This document shows positions 16,999-34,807 of a stretch of 64,000 nucleotides of DNA, piece by piece. Position numbers and translations under genes: made by a program. Every line of letters begins with the position of its first letter. Position 1 is the first letter of the stretch. This stretch comes from Syntrophobacterales bacterium (lineage in GTDB: Bacteria; Desulfobacterota; Syntrophobacteria; Syntrophobacterales; Thermodesulforhabdaceae). Below the pieces are notes generated by a model, which saw only the letters and a list, made by a program, of their open reading frames with translations, did no database searches and had not been told where the DNA came from. The stretch covers positions 1 to 64,000 of the forward strand of contig JAOACS010000022.1 of the NCBI GenBank assembly GCA_026417655.1. The letters are read 5' to 3'.

Positions 16999-17613
16999 TT
17001 ATTCTTTATCCTGTAGAAGTTTGTCGAGAACCTCTATTAGTTTTTCTAAGGATGTTATGCCAAGAATGATAACAACACAGCCTGTAATATTTGTGGCTTT
17101 AACAACAAATTCAGTTACAACCGCTACTGCATGCTGGAGTGGTTGCCCATCAAGGGAGATACTTTCCACCATAGCGTGGACACTGTCAACTCGAATGTTA
17201 GGGATGTAGAAGGCTATGTTGCCTTTCATCAAATTTCCGAGAGTTCCTACGTAGGCATTAAGAAGTATGTTTCCTATCTCAAGAAGCACTTCTCGGTCAC
17301 CTTCGTCTAACCTGGGAAGACCAGATCTGTCCTCGGATATAAGCTCAACAAGGGTCAAGGCACTTTGGGGATCCATTATAAGAAGGGCATTACCCGATAT
17401 GCTACCACTAAAGAACTGATTTACCATAACCAGTTCAGCCCCTAAAAGGTTTTTTAGAAAATCCCCTAATCCCTTCGTAGAAAAAAGATAAACCTCTGGA
17501 GCCTTCAGTTCAACTCGCTTTTGAGTAAGTTCAGAAAGAGAATAGGCTGCCCGATGAAAAGCGATATTGATTACTTCCTGGAGAGCGTCCTTTCTTTCTT
17601 CCGAGAATTCCAT
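16999..17613 (-). CDS. CheC-like CheY-phosphate phosphatase
   Basis: A 204-residue protein with the CheC/CheX phosphatase pattern. Two copies of the (D/E)-x3-E-x2-N active motif are visible: DALQEVIN near residues 9-16 and EVLLEIGN near 108-115. Members dephosphorylate phosphorylated CheY-type receivers. Here it lies directly between a stand-alone receiver gene and a diguanylate cyclase gene and not in a chemotaxis operon, so its likely partner is the receiver at 17637. Both active-site copies look intact, as in phosphatase-competent CheC rather than the inactive half-site forms. The ATG is preceded by an AGGGGAGG ribosome site. Confidence 0.85.
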   Translation of the reverse strand: MEFSEERKDALQEVINIAFHRAAYSLSELTQKRVELKAPEVYLFSTKGLGDFLKNLLGAELVMVNQFFSGSISGNALLIMDPQSALTLVELISEDRSGLPRLDEGDREVLLEIGNILLNAYVGTLGNLMKGNIAFYIPNIRVDSVHAMVESISLDGQPLQHAVAVVTEFVVKATNITGCVVIILGITSLEKLIEVLDKLLQDKE

Positions 17614-17636
17614 AGCTACCTCCCCTTATTGTCTTT

Positions 17637-17990
17637 TTAAAGATAGCGGTTTAGAAGTTCTATAATTTGGTCCCTGTTGAAAGGCTTGGAAATATAGTCT
17701 AAGGCTCCCTTCTTAAAGGCCATTTCCTTTGTGCTATGTTGTATATCTGCGGTAACAATTATGACACGGCATTGGGGATCAATTTCTCGAAGTTTTGTTA
17801 AAACATCCAGCCCGTGCATGTCCTTCATGACTAGATCAAGAAAGACCAGGTCCGGCTTTTCAGCTGTGTATAATTGAATAGCCTCAATGCCTCCGGATGC
17901 CTCAAGGATAGTATGCTCCGTTTCTGTAAGAATGGATTTAAACATCTTTCTTGGTAGGCTTGAATCATCAACTATCATAATCTTTGCCAT
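17637..17990 (-). CDS. CheY-like single-domain response regulator
   Basis: A 117-residue receiver domain with no output domain. Acidic pair D8/D9, phosphorylation site D52 (FLDLVMKD), switch T80 (IIVTAD) and K102 (ISKPF) are all present, so it should be phosphorylatable. It heads a three-gene operon with a CheC-like phosphatase and a diguanylate cyclase. This suggests a phospho-signal that is erased by CheC and read out, directly or not, as cyclic-di-GMP. No cognate kinase is in this operon; the hybrid kinase at 20080 is the nearest candidate. Promoter signals lie in the 269-bp divergent region upstream. Confidence 0.92.
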   Translation of the reverse strand: MAKIMIVDDSSLPRKMFKSILTETEHTILEASGGIEAIQLYTAEKPDLVFLDLVMKDMHGLDVLTKLREIDPQCRVIIVTADIQHSTKEMAFKKGALDYISKPFNRDQIIELLNRYL

Positions 17991-18259: not shown

Positions 18260-19714
18260 ATGTCAGTTAAGCAAATACCGAGGCGTATCTTTACAGGCAT
18301 TAGCGGACTTGATGAGGTGTTACAGGGTGGGCTTCTCTCTAACCGAACCTATCTTATCAGGGGGGGACCTGGGACTGGTAAGACCACGCTAGGATTACAT
18401 TTTCTCGCTCAAGGGGTGATGGAGGGAGAAAGGGTTCTCTGTATTACACTGGGTGAGCCCGAATCAAACATACGTCAGAACGCTCTTTGGATAGGCTTTA
18501 ATCTAGAGGGGATACATTTTCTTGATCTAAGCCCAACTCCTGAATTTTTCATTGAGGTAGAAAGCTATGACATCTTTTCTCCGGCAGAGATTGAAAGAGA
18601 GCCTATCACGAAAAAGATCGTTGAAACGGTAGCAAGCCTAAAACCTAATCGTGTCTTTATAGATTCAATGACCCAGTTTCGATACTTTGCTACGGATAGT
18701 TTTCAGTTTAGAAAACAGGTCTTATCTTTTCTCCGTTTTCTTGTAGATAATGGGGCTACCGTAATGTTTGCTTCGGAATACGGCCAGGAAACACCCGATG
18801 AGGATCTTCAATTCCTAGCAGATGGGGTTATCAATCTAAGCTATAGTCACAGTGAGGGATATATATTAAATGTGTCCAAGTTTCGTGGATCTGATTTTCG
18901 GGGAGGTTTTCATCCCTACAAGCTTACAGAGGAAGGGATGAAAGTGTTTCCAAGGCTTATACCAAAAGAACACAGGAGAGAATTTGAAAGGGAGTTAATA
19001 CCGTCTGGTGTGCCAGAATTAGATGCTCTTTTACATGGTGGCTTGGAGCGAGGCACAACAACGATAATTACTGGGGCTAGTGGGACCGGAAAGACTACCC
19101 TAGGGATTCAATTTATGAGTGAGGCTTCAAGAAGGGGTGAACGCTCGGTAGTTTACATCTTTGATGAGGGGGTTGAATCACTAATCAGTCGTTGCGAAGC
19201 TATAAACATTCCTGTCCGTTCAATGATTGAAGGTGGTAGTCTTTCTATAGTAAGGATAGAGCCTATGCAGTTTACTCCCGATGAATTAGCCAATATTGTA
19301 CGCTGCGAGGTGGAAGAAAAAAGTGCTCGAATTGTCATGCTTGATAGCCTTGCTGGTTATAGGCTTTCTTTGAGGGGAGGGGATTTAGTGAGTAGACTCC
19401 ATGCCCTGTGCAAGTATCTTGCTAATATGGGAGTTACCGTATTGATAATAAATGAAGTGGAGCAGATAACCGGAGATTTCAAAGCTACCGAAAGGGGTAT
19501 TAGCTACCTTGGAGATAACCTAATTTTTATTAGGTACCTGGAAATAAAGGGAGAATTAAGAAAAGCTATTGGCGTAATAAAAAAGCGGTTGAGTGATTTC
19601 GAAAAGACTTTGCGAGAGTATGAAATCACTAAAGATGGCATAAAAATAGGTGAACCTTTGACAAATCTTAGGGGCATCTTAACTGGGAAACCAGAGTGGG
19701 TTAAAGGGTCATGA
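18260..19714 (+). CDS. KaiC-like double RecA-domain ATPase
   Basis: A 484-residue protein with two KaiC-type RecA domains. Walker A loops are GGPGTGKTT (35-43) and GASGTGKTT (272-280), each preceded by the family pattern TGISGLDEVLQGGL or PSGVPELDALLHGGL. Walker B-like strands are RVFIDSMTQ and RIVMLDSLA. The Glu pair after the first strands, important for ATP hydrolysis in cyanobacterial KaiC, appears as GEPES and DEGVES, so the chemistry may differ. No KaiA or KaiB gene is nearby. Non-cyanobacterial KaiC proteins often act in signalling with histidine kinases and receivers, which is exactly the gene order here. The stop overlaps the receiver gene by 4 bp. Confidence 0.88.
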   Translation: MSVKQIPRRIFTGISGLDEVLQGGLLSNRTYLIRGGPGTGKTTLGLHFLAQGVMEGERVLCITLGEPESNIRQNALWIGFNLEGIHFLDLSPTPEFFIEVESYDIFSPAEIEREPITKKIVETVASLKPNRVFIDSMTQFRYFATDSFQFRKQVLSFLRFLVDNGATVMFASEYGQETPDEDLQFLADGVINLSYSHSEGYILNVSKFRGSDFRGGFHPYKLTEEGMKVFPRLIPKEHRREFERELIPSGVPELDALLHGGLERGTTTIITGASGTGKTTLGIQFMSEASRRGERSVVYIFDEGVESLISRCEAINIPVRSMIEGGSLSIVRIEPMQFTPDELANIVRCEVEEKSARIVMLDSLAGYRLSLRGGDLVSRLHALCKYLANMGVTVLIINEVEQITGDFKATERGISYLGDNLIFIRYLEIKGELRKAIGVIKKRLSDFEKTLREYEITKDGIKIGEPLTNLRGILTGKPEWVKGS

Positions 19715-20067
19715 TACTCGTCTTAGATAGCAATCGTAAGAATCTGGAATTAATAGACCAGCTGTTGAGTAGAGGTGGTTATCAGGTAATTAAGATATCA
19801 AACCTAGAGGAGGCAGATCGTATAATTGAAGAGAGCTCTTGTATTGAGCTTGCTTTGGTAGATATTTCCGGTTTTGGAGAAGCCATTTGGGAGCGTTGTA
19901 AAAGACTCCATTCTTTAAATATACCCTTTCTCATTATATCACCCCGCTATAATCCTGAGATTCAACGTTCAGGTATTAAATATGGTGCTCGGGGTATACT
20001 GCCCAAGCCGATAATAATAAAGCATTTTTTTAGGTCTATACGTGATATTATAGGAGCTAATAAGTAA
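19711..20067 (+). CDS. Stand-alone receiver domain protein, degenerate acidic pocket
   Basis: A 118-residue receiver-fold protein. The phosphoacceptor position is kept as D51 (LALVDIS), the switch is S77 (LIISPR) and Lys99 is kept (LPKPI). The usual acidic pair at the N terminus is reduced to a single Asp6 followed by Ser, which may weaken Mg2+ binding. It may therefore be phosphorylated inefficiently or act as a binding module. It is translationally coupled to the KaiC-like gene (4-bp overlap) and lies 12 bp before the hybrid kinase gene, so the three proteins are probably made together. Confidence 0.82.
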   Translation: MILVLDSNRKNLELIDQLLSRGGYQVIKISNLEEADRIIEESSCIELALVDISGFGEAIWERCKRLHSLNIPFLIISPRYNPEIQRSGIKYGARGILPKPIIIKHFFRSIRDIIGANK

Positions 20068-20079
20068 GGGATCGAATCG

Positions 20080-22737
20080 ATGCATAGGATTCTTATTTTG
20101 ATTGAGAATCGAGAAAACCGTCGTTTATTAATACAGATGTTAGATAGAAAGTATGAAATGATTGTTTCGGACAATTCTAGCGACTTCAGCTTAACCATTA
20201 GGAGATGTGATTACGACCTTGGTATTTTGGATGGGATTTCACTGGATCGTTACTGGGAAGCTGTCGAGGAGAGTAAAAAAGAAGTAGCCCCCTTGTTTTT
20301 GCCCTTTTTATTGATTACATCACGACAAGATGTTGAATACACTACTCGCCACCTATGGAGATCTATTGATGAGGTAATAACGACGCCGATCAAGAGAATA
20401 GAGTTAGAGGCGCGGATTGGTATTCTTCTGAGGGCCCGCAGGTATTCCTATGAACAAAAGGCACGACTAGAGGCTGAGAGGGAGAGAGATTTGATTGCTC
20501 GAGTGATAAACCGTTTACATGAGGGTATTGTTGCTTTAGACAAGGAGTGGAATTTCGTTTACCTAAATGAAAGGGCGGTAAAAATATTAAGTAAACATTA
20601 CCTAACAGATCTTCTCCATAGAAACTACTGGCACGAGTTCCCAGAGAGTAGGGATACTCCGTTAGGTAAAGCGTTACAGGATGCTCGGTATCAACAATCG
20701 CCAGTAACGGTTGAATATTACAATCAGATAACGGACAGCTTTTTTGAGACCCGAATTTTCCCGTCATCGGAGGGGTTAACTATTTTAATGACCGATATTA
20801 CTAGCCGAAAACGGGCAGAGGAGGCTCTTCGACGAAGCGAGGAAAATTATAGAAACATGTTCTATGGTGCTCCGGTAGGGCTCTTTAGAACGGCTTTATT
20901 GGACTTTAGAATCCTAGAGTGTAATAATCAGCTGGCCCGTATCCTTGGCTTTGAAAGTCGTGAAGAGTTTCTTGCTAAGGGCTTTTCCTTCTTGGATCTA
21001 TTTATGGAGCCTAATGATATAAAGCAAATCTTAAATCGGATTGTTAAAGATGGGATTATAGGAGGTTTCGAAACCAAAGTATATGGTAGAAATAAACCTA
21101 TCACTTGGGTAAGGGTTTCAGCGCGACTTTGCGAAAATGGTGAGTGTATTGAAGTAGTTGTTGAAGATATTACAGCTCAGAAACAGACTGAGGAAGCTCT
21201 CTTACAAAGTGAAGAAAGGTTTCGTCGCTTAGCTGAAAATGCTCCAGATATAATATATAGGTATGAGTTGTCACCCAAGAGGGGATTTACCTATATAAGC
21301 CCCGCTCTTAAGGATGTAACTGGTTACACACCGGAGGAATATTATGCCGATCCAGATATAATATTTAAAATTATTCATCCAGATGATCGCCAATCATTAG
21401 ATATGCTTATTGAAGGGACCGCTTCCTATGAGCGGCCGGTCCTTCTTCGATGGATACGAAAGGACGGCTCCATTGTTTGGACGGAACTTCGAAATGTTGC
21501 AGTCCACGATGAATCCGGCAATGTAATTGCGTTAGAAGGTATTGCCCGAGATATAACCGAAAGTAAAAAGGCGCAGGAAGAAAAGTATAAACTTCAGGAG
21601 CAACTACTTCAATTGCAAAAGATTGACTCCATCGGACGGTTAGCTGGTGGCATCGCTCATGACTTCAATAACATGTTAAATGTGATTCTAGGTTATGGAG
21701 AGATCATCCTTTCTAAGCTCCATCCTCAGGATCCCCTAAGAGAATATATGAATCGGATTATTGAGGCGGGCCAACGAGCAGCAAACTTGACTCATCAACT
21801 CTTAGCCTTTAGTAGAAGACAAACTTTAAAGCCTAGAATTACAAACATTAATGTTTTAATCCAGAACATGGAAGATATGCTACGCAGATTAATTGGAGAG
21901 GATATTCTTCTTGAGCTATCTCTAGATCCAGACCTAGAGATGGTTATGATCGATCCTGTCCAGATTGAACAGGTTATACTAAACCTTGCTGCTAATGCTA
22001 GAGATGCTATGCCTAACGGGGGTAGACTTTATATAAAAACCGCCAAGGTATATTTAGATGGAGAATATGTTGCAAAACATGGGGAGATGATTCCTGGAGA
22101 ATATGTATTAATGAGTGTAACGGACACAGGGATTGGGATGGATAAGGAAACCCTAGAGCATATCTTCGAACCCTTTTTCACTACAAAGGAGATAGGAAAG
22201 GGGACTGGTCTCGGGCTTGCTACGGTCTATGGTATTATTAGGCAGTCTAATGGTTATATCTGGGTATATTCTGAACCAGGTAAGGGAACAACCTTTAAAA
22301 TCTATTTACCTGTTGTGAAATCAAAGGCTGAAACGGTAGCCCATGTGAAACATGAAGAAGTATATACCGGAAGGGGCGAACATATACTGGTAGTGGAAGA
22401 TGAAAAAAGCATTCGTGAACTCATGGCAAGCTTTTTGACCATGTTAGGTTTTACAGTCACCCTTGCTGCCAATGGTGGGGAGGCTATTCTCCTTGTAGAA
22501 GAAAAGGGAGTAGTGCCAGATTTGGTAATTACTGATATTGTTATGCCCCATATGAGTGGAAGACAATTGGTTGATCGTTTAAGAAAAAAGCTTCCGAATT
22601 TAAAGGTAATCTATATGTCCGGCTATTCCCATGAGATAGTCCTTGATGAAATAAATTCCGAACTAAATACGGCTTTTATACAAAAGCCCTTTTTACCTAG
22701 GGAATTAATTGGGAAAATTAAAGCCTTTCTATCTTAA
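20080..22737 (+). CDS. Hybrid sensor histidine kinase (REC-like, three PAS, HisKA, HATPase, REC)
   Basis: 885 residues, no membrane segment. The order is an N-terminal receiver-like domain (about 1-120, phosphoacceptor-like Asp in LGILDGIS but no acidic pair), then PAS domains at about 140-245, 250-370 and 375-495. A HisKA domain follows with the phospho-His about 527 in GGIAHDFNNML, then HATPase_c with NLAANARDAM (N box), DTGIGMD (G1) and GKGTGLGLATV (G2). The C-terminal receiver runs from about 768 to 885 with D819 in LVITDIVMP. It is the last gene of the KaiC-like operon and its stop codon directly abuts that of the convergent MscS gene. Confidence 0.92.
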   Translation: MHRILILIENRENRRLLIQMLDRKYEMIVSDNSSDFSLTIRRCDYDLGILDGISLDRYWEAVEESKKEVAPLFLPFLLITSRQDVEYTTRHLWRSIDEVITTPIKRIELEARIGILLRARRYSYEQKARLEAERERDLIARVINRLHEGIVALDKEWNFVYLNERAVKILSKHYLTDLLHRNYWHEFPESRDTPLGKALQDARYQQSPVTVEYYNQITDSFFETRIFPSSEGLTILMTDITSRKRAEEALRRSEENYRNMFYGAPVGLFRTALLDFRILECNNQLARILGFESREEFLAKGFSFLDLFMEPNDIKQILNRIVKDGIIGGFETKVYGRNKPITWVRVSARLCENGECIEVVVEDITAQKQTEEALLQSEERFRRLAENAPDIIYRYELSPKRGFTYISPALKDVTGYTPEEYYADPDIIFKIIHPDDRQSLDMLIEGTASYERPVLLRWIRKDGSIVWTELRNVAVHDESGNVIALEGIARDITESKKAQEEKYKLQEQLLQLQKIDSIGRLAGGIAHDFNNMLNVILGYGEIILSKLHPQDPLREYMNRIIEAGQRAANLTHQLLAFSRRQTLKPRITNINVLIQNMEDMLRRLIGEDILLELSLDPDLEMVMIDPVQIEQVILNLAANARDAMPNGGRLYIKTAKVYLDGEYVAKHGEMIPGEYVLMSVTDTGIGMDKETLEHIFEPFFTTKEIGKGTGLGLATVYGIIRQSNGYIWVYSEPGKGTTFKIYLPVVKSKAETVAHVKHEEVYTGRGEHILVVEDEKSIRELMASFLTMLGFTVTLAANGGEAILLVEEKGVVPDLVITDIVMPHMSGRQLVDRLRKKLPNLKVIYMSGYSHEIVLDEINSELNTAFIQKPFLPRELIGKIKAFLS

Positions 22738-30032: not shown

Positions 30033-30160
30033 TTTTGCTTTAGCAATAAAATGCCTTGACCGATTGCGCAAGCGGGAGTAAAGCAAAATTCGAAGAGATA
30101 TCGGTCAGGGGCTGATTGTTTGGATCAGAAGAGGAATTCCCATTTTAGAAAAAATGGGAA
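30033..30160 (+). ncRNA. Structured leader upstream of the DHp protein gene
   Basis: Three exact inverted repeats lie in 128 bases. TTTTGCTTTA (30033-30042) pairs with TAAAGCAAAA (30079-30088). TGACCGAT (30057-30064) pairs with ATCGGTCA (30100-30107), interleaved with the first. TTCCCATTTT (30137-30146) pairs with AAAATGGGAA (30151-30160) around a four-base AGAA loop. Inside the first stem GCAAT/ATTGC can stack further, and GCGCAAGC offers a GNRA-type tetraloop. The crossing repeats allow a pseudoknot or two exclusive folds, as in attenuators and riboswitches. There is no U-run, so control would be at translation, or the first stem is the end signal of iorB. I recognise no known RNA family. 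Confidence 0.5.
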
Positions 30161-30182
30161 AATAGCTCGTGAGGGGCTGGAT

Positions 30183-31607
30183 ATGAGGATCAACCATGTA
30201 GAGATCCTCGAAAAGGTATGTAAGGATGTGATCGAGACAATTTTAATGTGTCTTGATCATGCAACTAAAGGGACTGTGTATTTGATTGGACCCATGCCAG
30301 AACTTCGGGCGGTAAGGATTACCTCGGGTATTAGAAAAGAGGGAAATGGGGAGCTTCAGTGGGGACTTCCAGAAATTTCTGATTATAATCCACCGGGGAA
30401 AACGTGGCTTCAGTATCGGGATGAGCCTGGGCGTCCCCTTGAAGCTATGGCCTGGTGTGTGGAACATCAGAAGAGTTGGACAGCTGACAATCCTATGGAA
30501 GATGCCCGTAGTGTAAGAAAACAACTCATGGGAGAGCCGGAAGATTTCCATCACATGGAGCCTGTTCTCCTGAGAAAAAGTGAGATATATGAATATCCTC
30601 CAAACATTGATGATTATCCCAAAACCTGGGATGGTAGCCCAATATGGCAAGATACTGACTACGCCGTCGTGGCTGTTATAAAGATTCACTTCCTTCCCAA
30701 TTCTATAAGGCGAGGAGATAGGTCCACTAAGCTTATAAAACAGCTAGCTAGACGATTTGGTTCTGAGCTTCTTTCCCTCCATCTGAAGGAGTTTTTCTAT
30801 GAGGCAAGAAGGCAGCTTGATCAGATGCGGATAGAAAGCTGTAATGTCTTAGCCCACGAATTAAGAAATCCCATAATGAAGCTAGGTTTTATCGCTTCAG
30901 CCATTAATACCGAGATTGCCTTATTTAGAGAGGTTTGGGAAGATTATCTTAAAAATCACATTCCGAACCTTAATTTCAGAAAGGATCTTATTAGAGAGTT
31001 AAATAAGATGGCGATGGATATTAGGAATCGAATCCCCCTAGATCACGTTCTTTATAAAAAGATTCAGCAGGTTATTGATACGCAACAGGAATTAATTGTA
31101 AGTAATCCAATACCGGACAAGGCTCGAGAGAAGATAGATCAAGGTATTGCGCTCCTATGGGAGGCTATTTTCAAAGTGCCCGGTTCTGAGGTGGTAATAC
31201 TCGAAGAGGAGAAGGAGCGTGTTAGGGAGCTAATCTATAAATTGCGAGAAGCTATATACTACGGAATAAGAAAGGATGTTGTGAGGTTAGTAAATCACAT
31301 TCCTGAAGAGCTTAAGGATAAATGGGTTGATCTTGCATATCGAGAATTTTCCTTTGATGATTTGAAACTCCTTGATGAGTTACTAGATTTATTAGAAAAG
31401 ACGCCAGATGATATTCCCCACGGCTATCATATTCAAAAGAACCTTTTTTATCTTAAAACCTTAGCAGAAGTGGTGCAGGAGTTAAATGCTCGGGTGGCTA
31501 AGATAATAGAGACCCTTAGAAACACAAAACCTGTTATTTCGTGGATGATGGAATCGGATAGTCGAAAAGCGGATATAGAAAATGGGGTCTGTGGAGGGGT
31601 TGTTTGA
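30183..31607 (+). CDS. Histidine-kinase-like DHp protein without ATPase domain
   Basis: 474 residues from the ATG at 30183 (GAGGGG ribosome site); a TTG at 30120 would add 21 residues that overlap a perfect hairpin. The N-terminal part (about 5-200) may be a GAF-like sensor. A clear H-box follows, NVLAHELRNPIMKLG with His225, as in HisKA dimerisation domains. After it comes only a long helical region (to about 465); no N, G1, F or G2 box of a kinase ATPase domain is present. It may act as a phosphotransfer or scaffold protein or as a phosphatase-like partner of a separate kinase. It has no membrane segment. Neighbours are iorAB and serA, with no evident functional link. Confidence 0.75.
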   Translation: MRINHVEILEKVCKDVIETILMCLDHATKGTVYLIGPMPELRAVRITSGIRKEGNGELQWGLPEISDYNPPGKTWLQYRDEPGRPLEAMAWCVEHQKSWTADNPMEDARSVRKQLMGEPEDFHHMEPVLLRKSEIYEYPPNIDDYPKTWDGSPIWQDTDYAVVAVIKIHFLPNSIRRGDRSTKLIKQLARRFGSELLSLHLKEFFYEARRQLDQMRIESCNVLAHELRNPIMKLGFIASAINTEIALFREVWEDYLKNHIPNLNFRKDLIRELNKMAMDIRNRIPLDHVLYKKIQQVIDTQQELIVSNPIPDKAREKIDQGIALLWEAIFKVPGSEVVILEEEKERVRELIYKLREAIYYGIRKDVVRLVNHIPEELKDKWVDLAYREFSFDDLKLLDELLDLLEKTPDDIPHGYHIQKNLFYLKTLAEVVQELNARVAKIIETLRNTKPVISWMMESDSRKADIENGVCGGVV

Positions 31608-34732: not shown

Positions 34733-34807
34733 TGGGGTGTCGCCAAGTGGAAAGGCACGGGTCTTTGGAACCCGCATTCGGAGGTTCGAATCCTCCCACC
34801 CCAGCCA
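34733..34807 (+). tRNA. tRNA-Gln (anticodon TTG)
   Basis: A complete cloverleaf is visible. The acceptor stem TGGGGTG (34733-34739) pairs with CACCCCA (34797-34803), the discriminator is G, and CCA is encoded (34805-34807). The anticodon stem CGGGT/ACCCG holds loop CTTTGGA with anticodon TTG, and the T arm is GGAGG TTCGAAT CCTCC. It sits inside the ispE-prs gene string, so it is likely processed from a longer transcript. Confidence 0.96.

Follow-up and report, generated by a model that had tools for sequence, protein, structure and literature searches.

A gene on the forward strand at positions 30183-31607 of the window (the whole 64,000-nucleotide stretch analysed here, from contig JAOACS010000022.1 of a Syntrophobacterales bacterium) encodes a 474-residue protein, in which a predicted GAF-fold sensor is followed by a long, transmitter-like helical module lacking a kinase ATPase domain. 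Among its relatives, the histidine of the H-box is variable and the asparagine four residues further on (His+4) is invariant. This conservation pattern suggests that signalling proteins are switched off, rather than phosphate being passed on. We tentatively propose a cytosolic signalling role in which the GAF domain provides the input and the protein, through its output module, acts as a kinase-less docking protein for two-component systems, most likely as a response-regulator phosphatase. Its features are as follows:

30171..30176, + strand: likely ribosome binding site GAGGGG, 6 bases 5' of the ATG, read from the sequence
30183..31607, + strand: whole gene, 474 aa, GAF sensor and kinase-less transmitter-like helical module
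30183..30722, + strand: N-terminal GAF-fold sensor, residues 1-180 (AlphaFold2 model, VIA-align Z up to ~14, conservation)
30720..30959, + strand: single long helix bearing the H-box, residues 180-259 (structure models)
30855..30872, + strand: H-box HELRNP, residues 225-230, with His, Asp or Leu at 225 and Arg228 and Asn229 invariant (alignments, HisKA profile match)
30867..30869, + strand: Asn229 codon, His+4, described as the phosphatase-specific position in HisKA kinases (91/91 rows; PMC3510030)
30978..31412, + strand: less conserved all-helical region, residues 266-410, with no kinase-domain or solved-fold likeness found
31422..31523, + strand: last long helix, residues 414-447 (structure models)
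31533..31604, + strand: low-confidence, unconserved C-terminal tail, residues 451-474 (AlphaFold2 model)

The reading frame extends from an ATG at 30183 to a stop ending at 31607. A TTG start at 30120 was rejected because homologues start near 30183, and a reverse-strand gene because numerous stops interrupt the minus strand of this interval in the frame that was read. Homologues spanning the whole protein and close to it in length occur in 43 of 59 related genomes; the rest of the order has them too, in 38 of 38 genomes. Purifying selection on the gene is strong, with a dN of 0.06 for the GAF part and a dS close to or past saturation. Chance and truncation are therefore ruled out, including a truncated or frameshifted kinase, and the preliminary description was right in stating that the gene is not truncated. 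The gene lies 160 bases 3' of iorB in the order iorA-iorB-gene, which is kept in 5 of the 80 named relatives, a sixth having iorB alone; these and the other housekeeping gene names are presumed from our own reading of the translations. Further along the window, a tRNA-Gln (ttg) occupies positions 34733-34807 (+), and the mechanical ORF start of the next gene (34732) overlaps it.

The protein belongs to a family overlooked in the preliminary description and unrecognised by Pfam, NCBIfam and PHROGs; PADLOC and PHROGs searches with the window gene returned nothing of note. A scan of genome contigs with the single protein found no relative; the relatives come from an alignment-based scan, of which 80 of 111 finds were kept. 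Counting the window's own genome, all 39 genomes examined in the order have the family, and within family f3 several carry two to four copies. Two other families of the phylum have it in 33 of 46 and 16 of 17 genomes. Phylum-wide, the count is 30 of 395 genomes, a figure that includes an ordinary kinase and a short fragment; for the GAF family specifically it is 28 of 395, with frame lengths mostly fitting the fused protein. The weak matches G122 (E 7e-4) and G041 were rejected as members, being ordinary complete kinases by sequence, and G209 is a match of 41 positions only. A literature search on the family and on HATPase-less or phosphatase-only DHp proteins, with subscription papers largely outside its scope, yielded no description of it among the papers listed. 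The family is a core sensor across this order of sulfate reducers and syntrophs, without a name in the family libraries searched.

The GAF fold of residues 1-180, also missed in the preliminary description, is seen in the AlphaFold2 model of the whole protein (64 sequences, pLDDT 85.7, pTM 0.55), for which the alignment combined whole loci from 63 of the 80 named relatives with the window. Many GAF structures align to this model in VIA-align at Z 12 to 14.1, with an rmsd of 2.5-4.5 over 129-160 residues; the top row of the fold search, 7jrj_I, is a radial-spoke chain. The fold is recognised by structure and not by sequence model: in Pfam, no GAF model matches the window protein at E up to 10, nor is any found in 26 family members among the best 25 of 27 families. 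Conservation is highest in this part of the protein: identity reaches 90% or more at 70 of 164 core positions over 64 rows, compared with 11 of 150 in residues 261-410. Over 32 rows of the GAF part, Cys13, Cys92, Trp91, Trp99 and His124 do not vary, which suggests that it may sense a fixed ligand, a metal or a redox state.

From residue 180 onwards, the predicted structure is all helix with zero strands, shorter helices filling the space to residue 406 between the long ones; the module modelled alone (pLDDT 88.5, pTM 0.73) likewise has no strand. The HATPase domain has an alpha/beta fold, and so a degenerate version of it was rejected on the entirely helical model past residue 180. No profile match to kinases is obtained with residues 100-275 of the module; the H-box is followed by 249 residues in all. 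Pfam detects no HATPase in the window protein, nor in 26 family members among the best 25 of 27 families. The HATPase_c domain that follows the DHp in a histidine kinase is thus lacking. The preliminary description, which had proposed a helical C-terminus without kinase ATPase domain and had named a degenerate HATPase fold as the finding that would contradict it, holds on both counts. The monomer model displays one 80-residue helix and no obvious two-helix DHp hairpin. Searches of solved structures with the module alone gave nothing convincing in Foldseek (best E 0.028) or VIA-align (best Z 10.6 at rmsd 17), and the same is true of sequence searches with the whole protein, its GAF part and the module (best E 0.009). 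No kinase DHp appears among the best 50 matches listed in the module fold search, which excludes nothing.

The window protein retains the full H-E-x-x-N motif, with His225 encoded at 30855-30857. In the first 30 relatives (window included), position 225 is His in 29 and Asp in one; the 64-row alignment has 46 His and 18 Asp, and the 91-row tree set, which leaves out L107, has 69 His, 21 Asp and one Leu. The loss of the His in close homologues, which had been put forward as an argument against the phosphotransfer idea, is thereby observed at the family level. The residue pairs at 225-226 in these 91 rows are HE (56), DS (20), HS (6), HD (4), HQ (2), DQ (1), LE (1) and HA (1), so that a majority, 56, has both His and Glu and an acid occupies position 226 in only 61. 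The tree requires five changes at position 225, of which at least three are forced by well-supported branches, the direction of change being unsure because of midpoint rooting and long branches; in the taxonomic family of the window itself, L032, with Asp, has as its sister L005, with His. Asn229, in contrast, is invariant in 91 of 91 rows. Its invariance may be structural, since R228, R249, W252, E253, L273 and W326 are equally invariant. At His+5, just 5 of 91 rows retain the Pro.

In the HisKA motif H-E/D-x-x-T/N, as described in PMC3510030, the E/D is needed for kinase activity only and the T/N for phosphatase activity only, the His being dispensable for the latter though enhancing it; the P376A change of CrdS, at His+5, is reported there to lower phosphatase activity strongly. 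As background served 159 HisKA matches, out of 189 counted in four family-bearing genomes including the window's own; this set favours kinases recognised by the HisKA model, which itself rewards His. In it, the His is present in 159, E/D in 147 and T/N in 141, with Gly at His+4 in one. The family pattern is inverted relative to these kinases, with His225 and the acid at 226 variable and Asn229 fixed. According to the explanation that we tentatively prefer, the GAF domain would sense a putative ligand or redox state, and the signal would pass down the long helix of residues 180-259 and alter the docking of a receiver domain on the H-box face, with an output independent of phosphohistidine. The module would then bind a phosphorylated response regulator and speed its dephosphorylation via Asn229, thereby opposing a separate kinase. 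Speaking against this explanation are the other invariant residues, the scarcity of Pro at His+5, the single helix in place of a clear DHp hairpin, the His and Glu retained by most members, and the lack of a kinase beside the window gene.

A kinase is indeed found next to some members. In a paralogous clade of 20 copies (support 100/99), 19 have downstream sequence (L076, with only 118 bases, is outside this count), and 16 of the 19 are followed by an orthologous PAS-HisKA-HATPase kinase, the match starting 31-310 bp after the family gene. The kinase is absent beside the L046, L053 and L082 copies, which have directly downstream what we take from its translation to be a threonine-dehydratase-like gene. 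A search of the order's 39 genomes at E 1e-50 recovers the kinase orthologue in 20, every one of them a member of family f3; the window's genome yields none at this threshold. The idea of a two-component partner, raised in the preliminary description, is plausible. The window gene itself has no kinase neighbour; that the window copy acts like its kinase-linked paralogues is what we infer.

This operon-like arrangement also feeds the main rival explanation, a doubtful one in our estimate, in which the module would dock on, or heterodimerise with, the DHp of a kinase that the GAF domain tunes, without any enzyme activity of its own. The likeness of the H-box helix to a DHp agrees with it, as do two precedents: the GAF accessory protein CvnF8 is described as stimulating its kinase (PMC13343842), and DivL, closer in spirit, is described as binding DivK~P though devoid of kinase and phosphatase activity (PMC4211667). 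However, three of the 19 paralogues and the window gene lack such an adjacent kinase, and kinase modulation by itself provides no reason for Asn229 to be invariant and His225 variable. Even as an adaptor, the protein would provide an output module that resembles a transmitter, moves between GAF, PAS and REC-PAS inputs and, in the searches made here, clearly matches no solved structure.

The His+4 position of the linked kinases bears on a response-regulator phosphatase as well. All 16 kinases of the paralogous clade read SHD-x-RG, in which the Asp is kept and T/N is replaced by Gly. The clade with Asp at position 225 has a different kinase 2-4 kb upstream, often together with a receiver gene, and His+4 in these 12 kinases is Val in 10, Gly in one and Asn in one. 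A further kinase, next to the L132 member described below, has Ala, and those upstream of L090/L102 and of L092 retain Asn. T/N is absent in three of five linked-kinase lineages versus 18 of 159 background kinases, the lineages having been grouped after the data were seen; the argument is phylogenetically thin, as the 16 orthologous kinases represent one event and the grouping is post hoc. These residues would fit a split design, which we regard as speculative and on balance unlikely, in which the tasks of a bifunctional transmitter would be shared out in this Desulfobacterota lineage: a kinase with Gly, Val or Ala at His+4 would have lost the phosphatase residue, a transmitter that lost its kinase would have become a phosphatase of its own with a GAF sensor, and two different signals would control how fast a single response regulator is switched on and off. 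Were the family a true dedicated phosphatase carved from a kinase, it would show that the opposing kinase and phosphatase activities can be passed on in two genes, each with its own sensing, and nature would have put to the test the HisKA rule that assigns E/D to the kinase and T/N to the phosphatase.

Pfam HisKA (PF00512) scores 9.4 bits with the window protein, well below its cut-off of 26.9 (E 1.4), and matches one of 26 family members at E up to 1. In a profile-profile comparison of the module (64 rows; shallow alignment, Neff 3.9) with 26 histidine kinases from the examined loci, the H-box helix scores 40.6 (E 1.6e-4), with His aligned to His, and the maximum of 20 column shuffles and two reversed controls is 17.2, so that a chance H-box was rejected. 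The score falls to 13.7 once module residues 39-62, which hold the H-box, are removed, and residues 100-275 alone reach 12.6. The likeness to HisKA is therefore above chance and confined to this one helix. The canonical HisKA H-box HELRNP of the preliminary description is thus borne out at residues 225-230, as the first helix expected of a HisKA domain.

The module also occupies the place of a transmitter, as it follows PAS and REC-PAS domains in three loci that form one supported group in the tree. L112:588-2597 carries three PAS domains and the module, with Leu in place of His225; L113:1404-2648 carries one PAS and the module; and L132:232-1884 (-) carries REC-PAS and the module, adjoining a V4R-HisKA-HATPase kinase gene in the same orientation. 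It is rather unlikely, then, that the H-box is a mere resemblance and the module some other output, such as a scaffold or partner-switching domain, unrelated to two-component phosphate chemistry. The HisKA score far under the cut-off, a similarity carried by ~24 residues, the lack of a clearly matching solved fold and the absence of kinase similarity in module residues 100-275 all speak for such a resemblance; the in-register match far above 20 shuffles, the placement behind PAS or REC-PAS domains and the adjacent kinase gene of one clade speak against it. A phosphotransfer hub, raised in the preliminary description, in which His225 would carry a phosphoryl group between receivers as in ChpT or Spo0B, agrees with the intact H-E-L-R-N-P of the window copy and with the His of 69 of 91 rows, but is improbable for the family given Asp or Leu in 22 rows on several branches next to an invariant Asn229, and given the lack of a Bergerat-like C-terminal domain as in ChpT; the window protein itself, with its intact motif, may still engage in phosphotransfer.

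Several known systems resemble the family in mode of action. Similar in architecture are archaeal HATPase-less REC/PAS/GAF-HisKA proteins such as A. fulgidus AF_1472, whose input domains precede a HisKA-type region that lacks an ATPase; these are described as unstudied and as likely dimers engaged in protein-protein interactions (PMC5847659, PMC1183210). On that description they stand apart: their HisKA domain is called, whereas here it is below the cut-off, the His is variable and ~190 further helical residues follow. DivL, a transmitter core without phospho-accepting His, is described as binding a response regulator (PMC4211667); unlike the present family, it keeps a CA domain and has a Tyr, whereas here the CA domain is missing and the C-terminus differs. 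ChpT and Spo0B share a DHp-like helix with an H-box and no autokinase activity (PMC3433190), but in ChpT the C-terminal domain is Bergerat-like and the His shuttles phosphate, neither of which applies at the family level here. CvnF8 is likewise a stand-alone GAF protein linked to a kinase, yet, as described in PMC13343842, it comprises a GAF domain with flexible termini and no H-box module, and comes from a different phylum. In the HisKA kinases CrdS and HK853 and in the CheX and CheZ phosphatases, T/N at His+4, or the ExxN and DxxxQ motifs, respectively, are described as serving receiver dephosphorylation (PMC3510030); these, however, are complete bifunctional kinases or unrelated folds. The likeness in mode of action stands, and the tested defining features of a histidine kinase, of the HisKA family (conserved phospho-accepting His) and of a ChpT/Spo0B-type phosphotransferase (invariant phospho-accepting His) fail at the family level, the T/N expected at His+4 of a HisKA-type phosphatase being Asn throughout.

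Other genes around the family members deserve mention. At L101:2757-3296 (-) and similar Asp-clade loci, a receiver protein of ~179 aa with a C-terminal extension lies beside a small HDLKVPL kinase; this receiver protein is a candidate substrate. A conserved ~195 aa gene with several N-terminal cysteines is found near the paralogous clade's gene at L046, L053, L057, L082 and L098, 59-820 bp upstream in four of these five loci; for its L057 copy, Pfam gives no hit at E 0.01. In the window, the receivers encoded at 17637 and 19711, proposed earlier as partners in phosphotransfer, are real receiver domains, although nothing was found linking them to the gene. A CheX-like protein (below the cut-off) and a receiver protein are encoded at 16999-17990 (-), and a KaiC-type double ATPase, a stand-alone receiver and a PAS-HisKA-HATPase-receiver hybrid kinase at 18260-22737 (+); together these genes possibly form a KaiC-linked signalling cluster.
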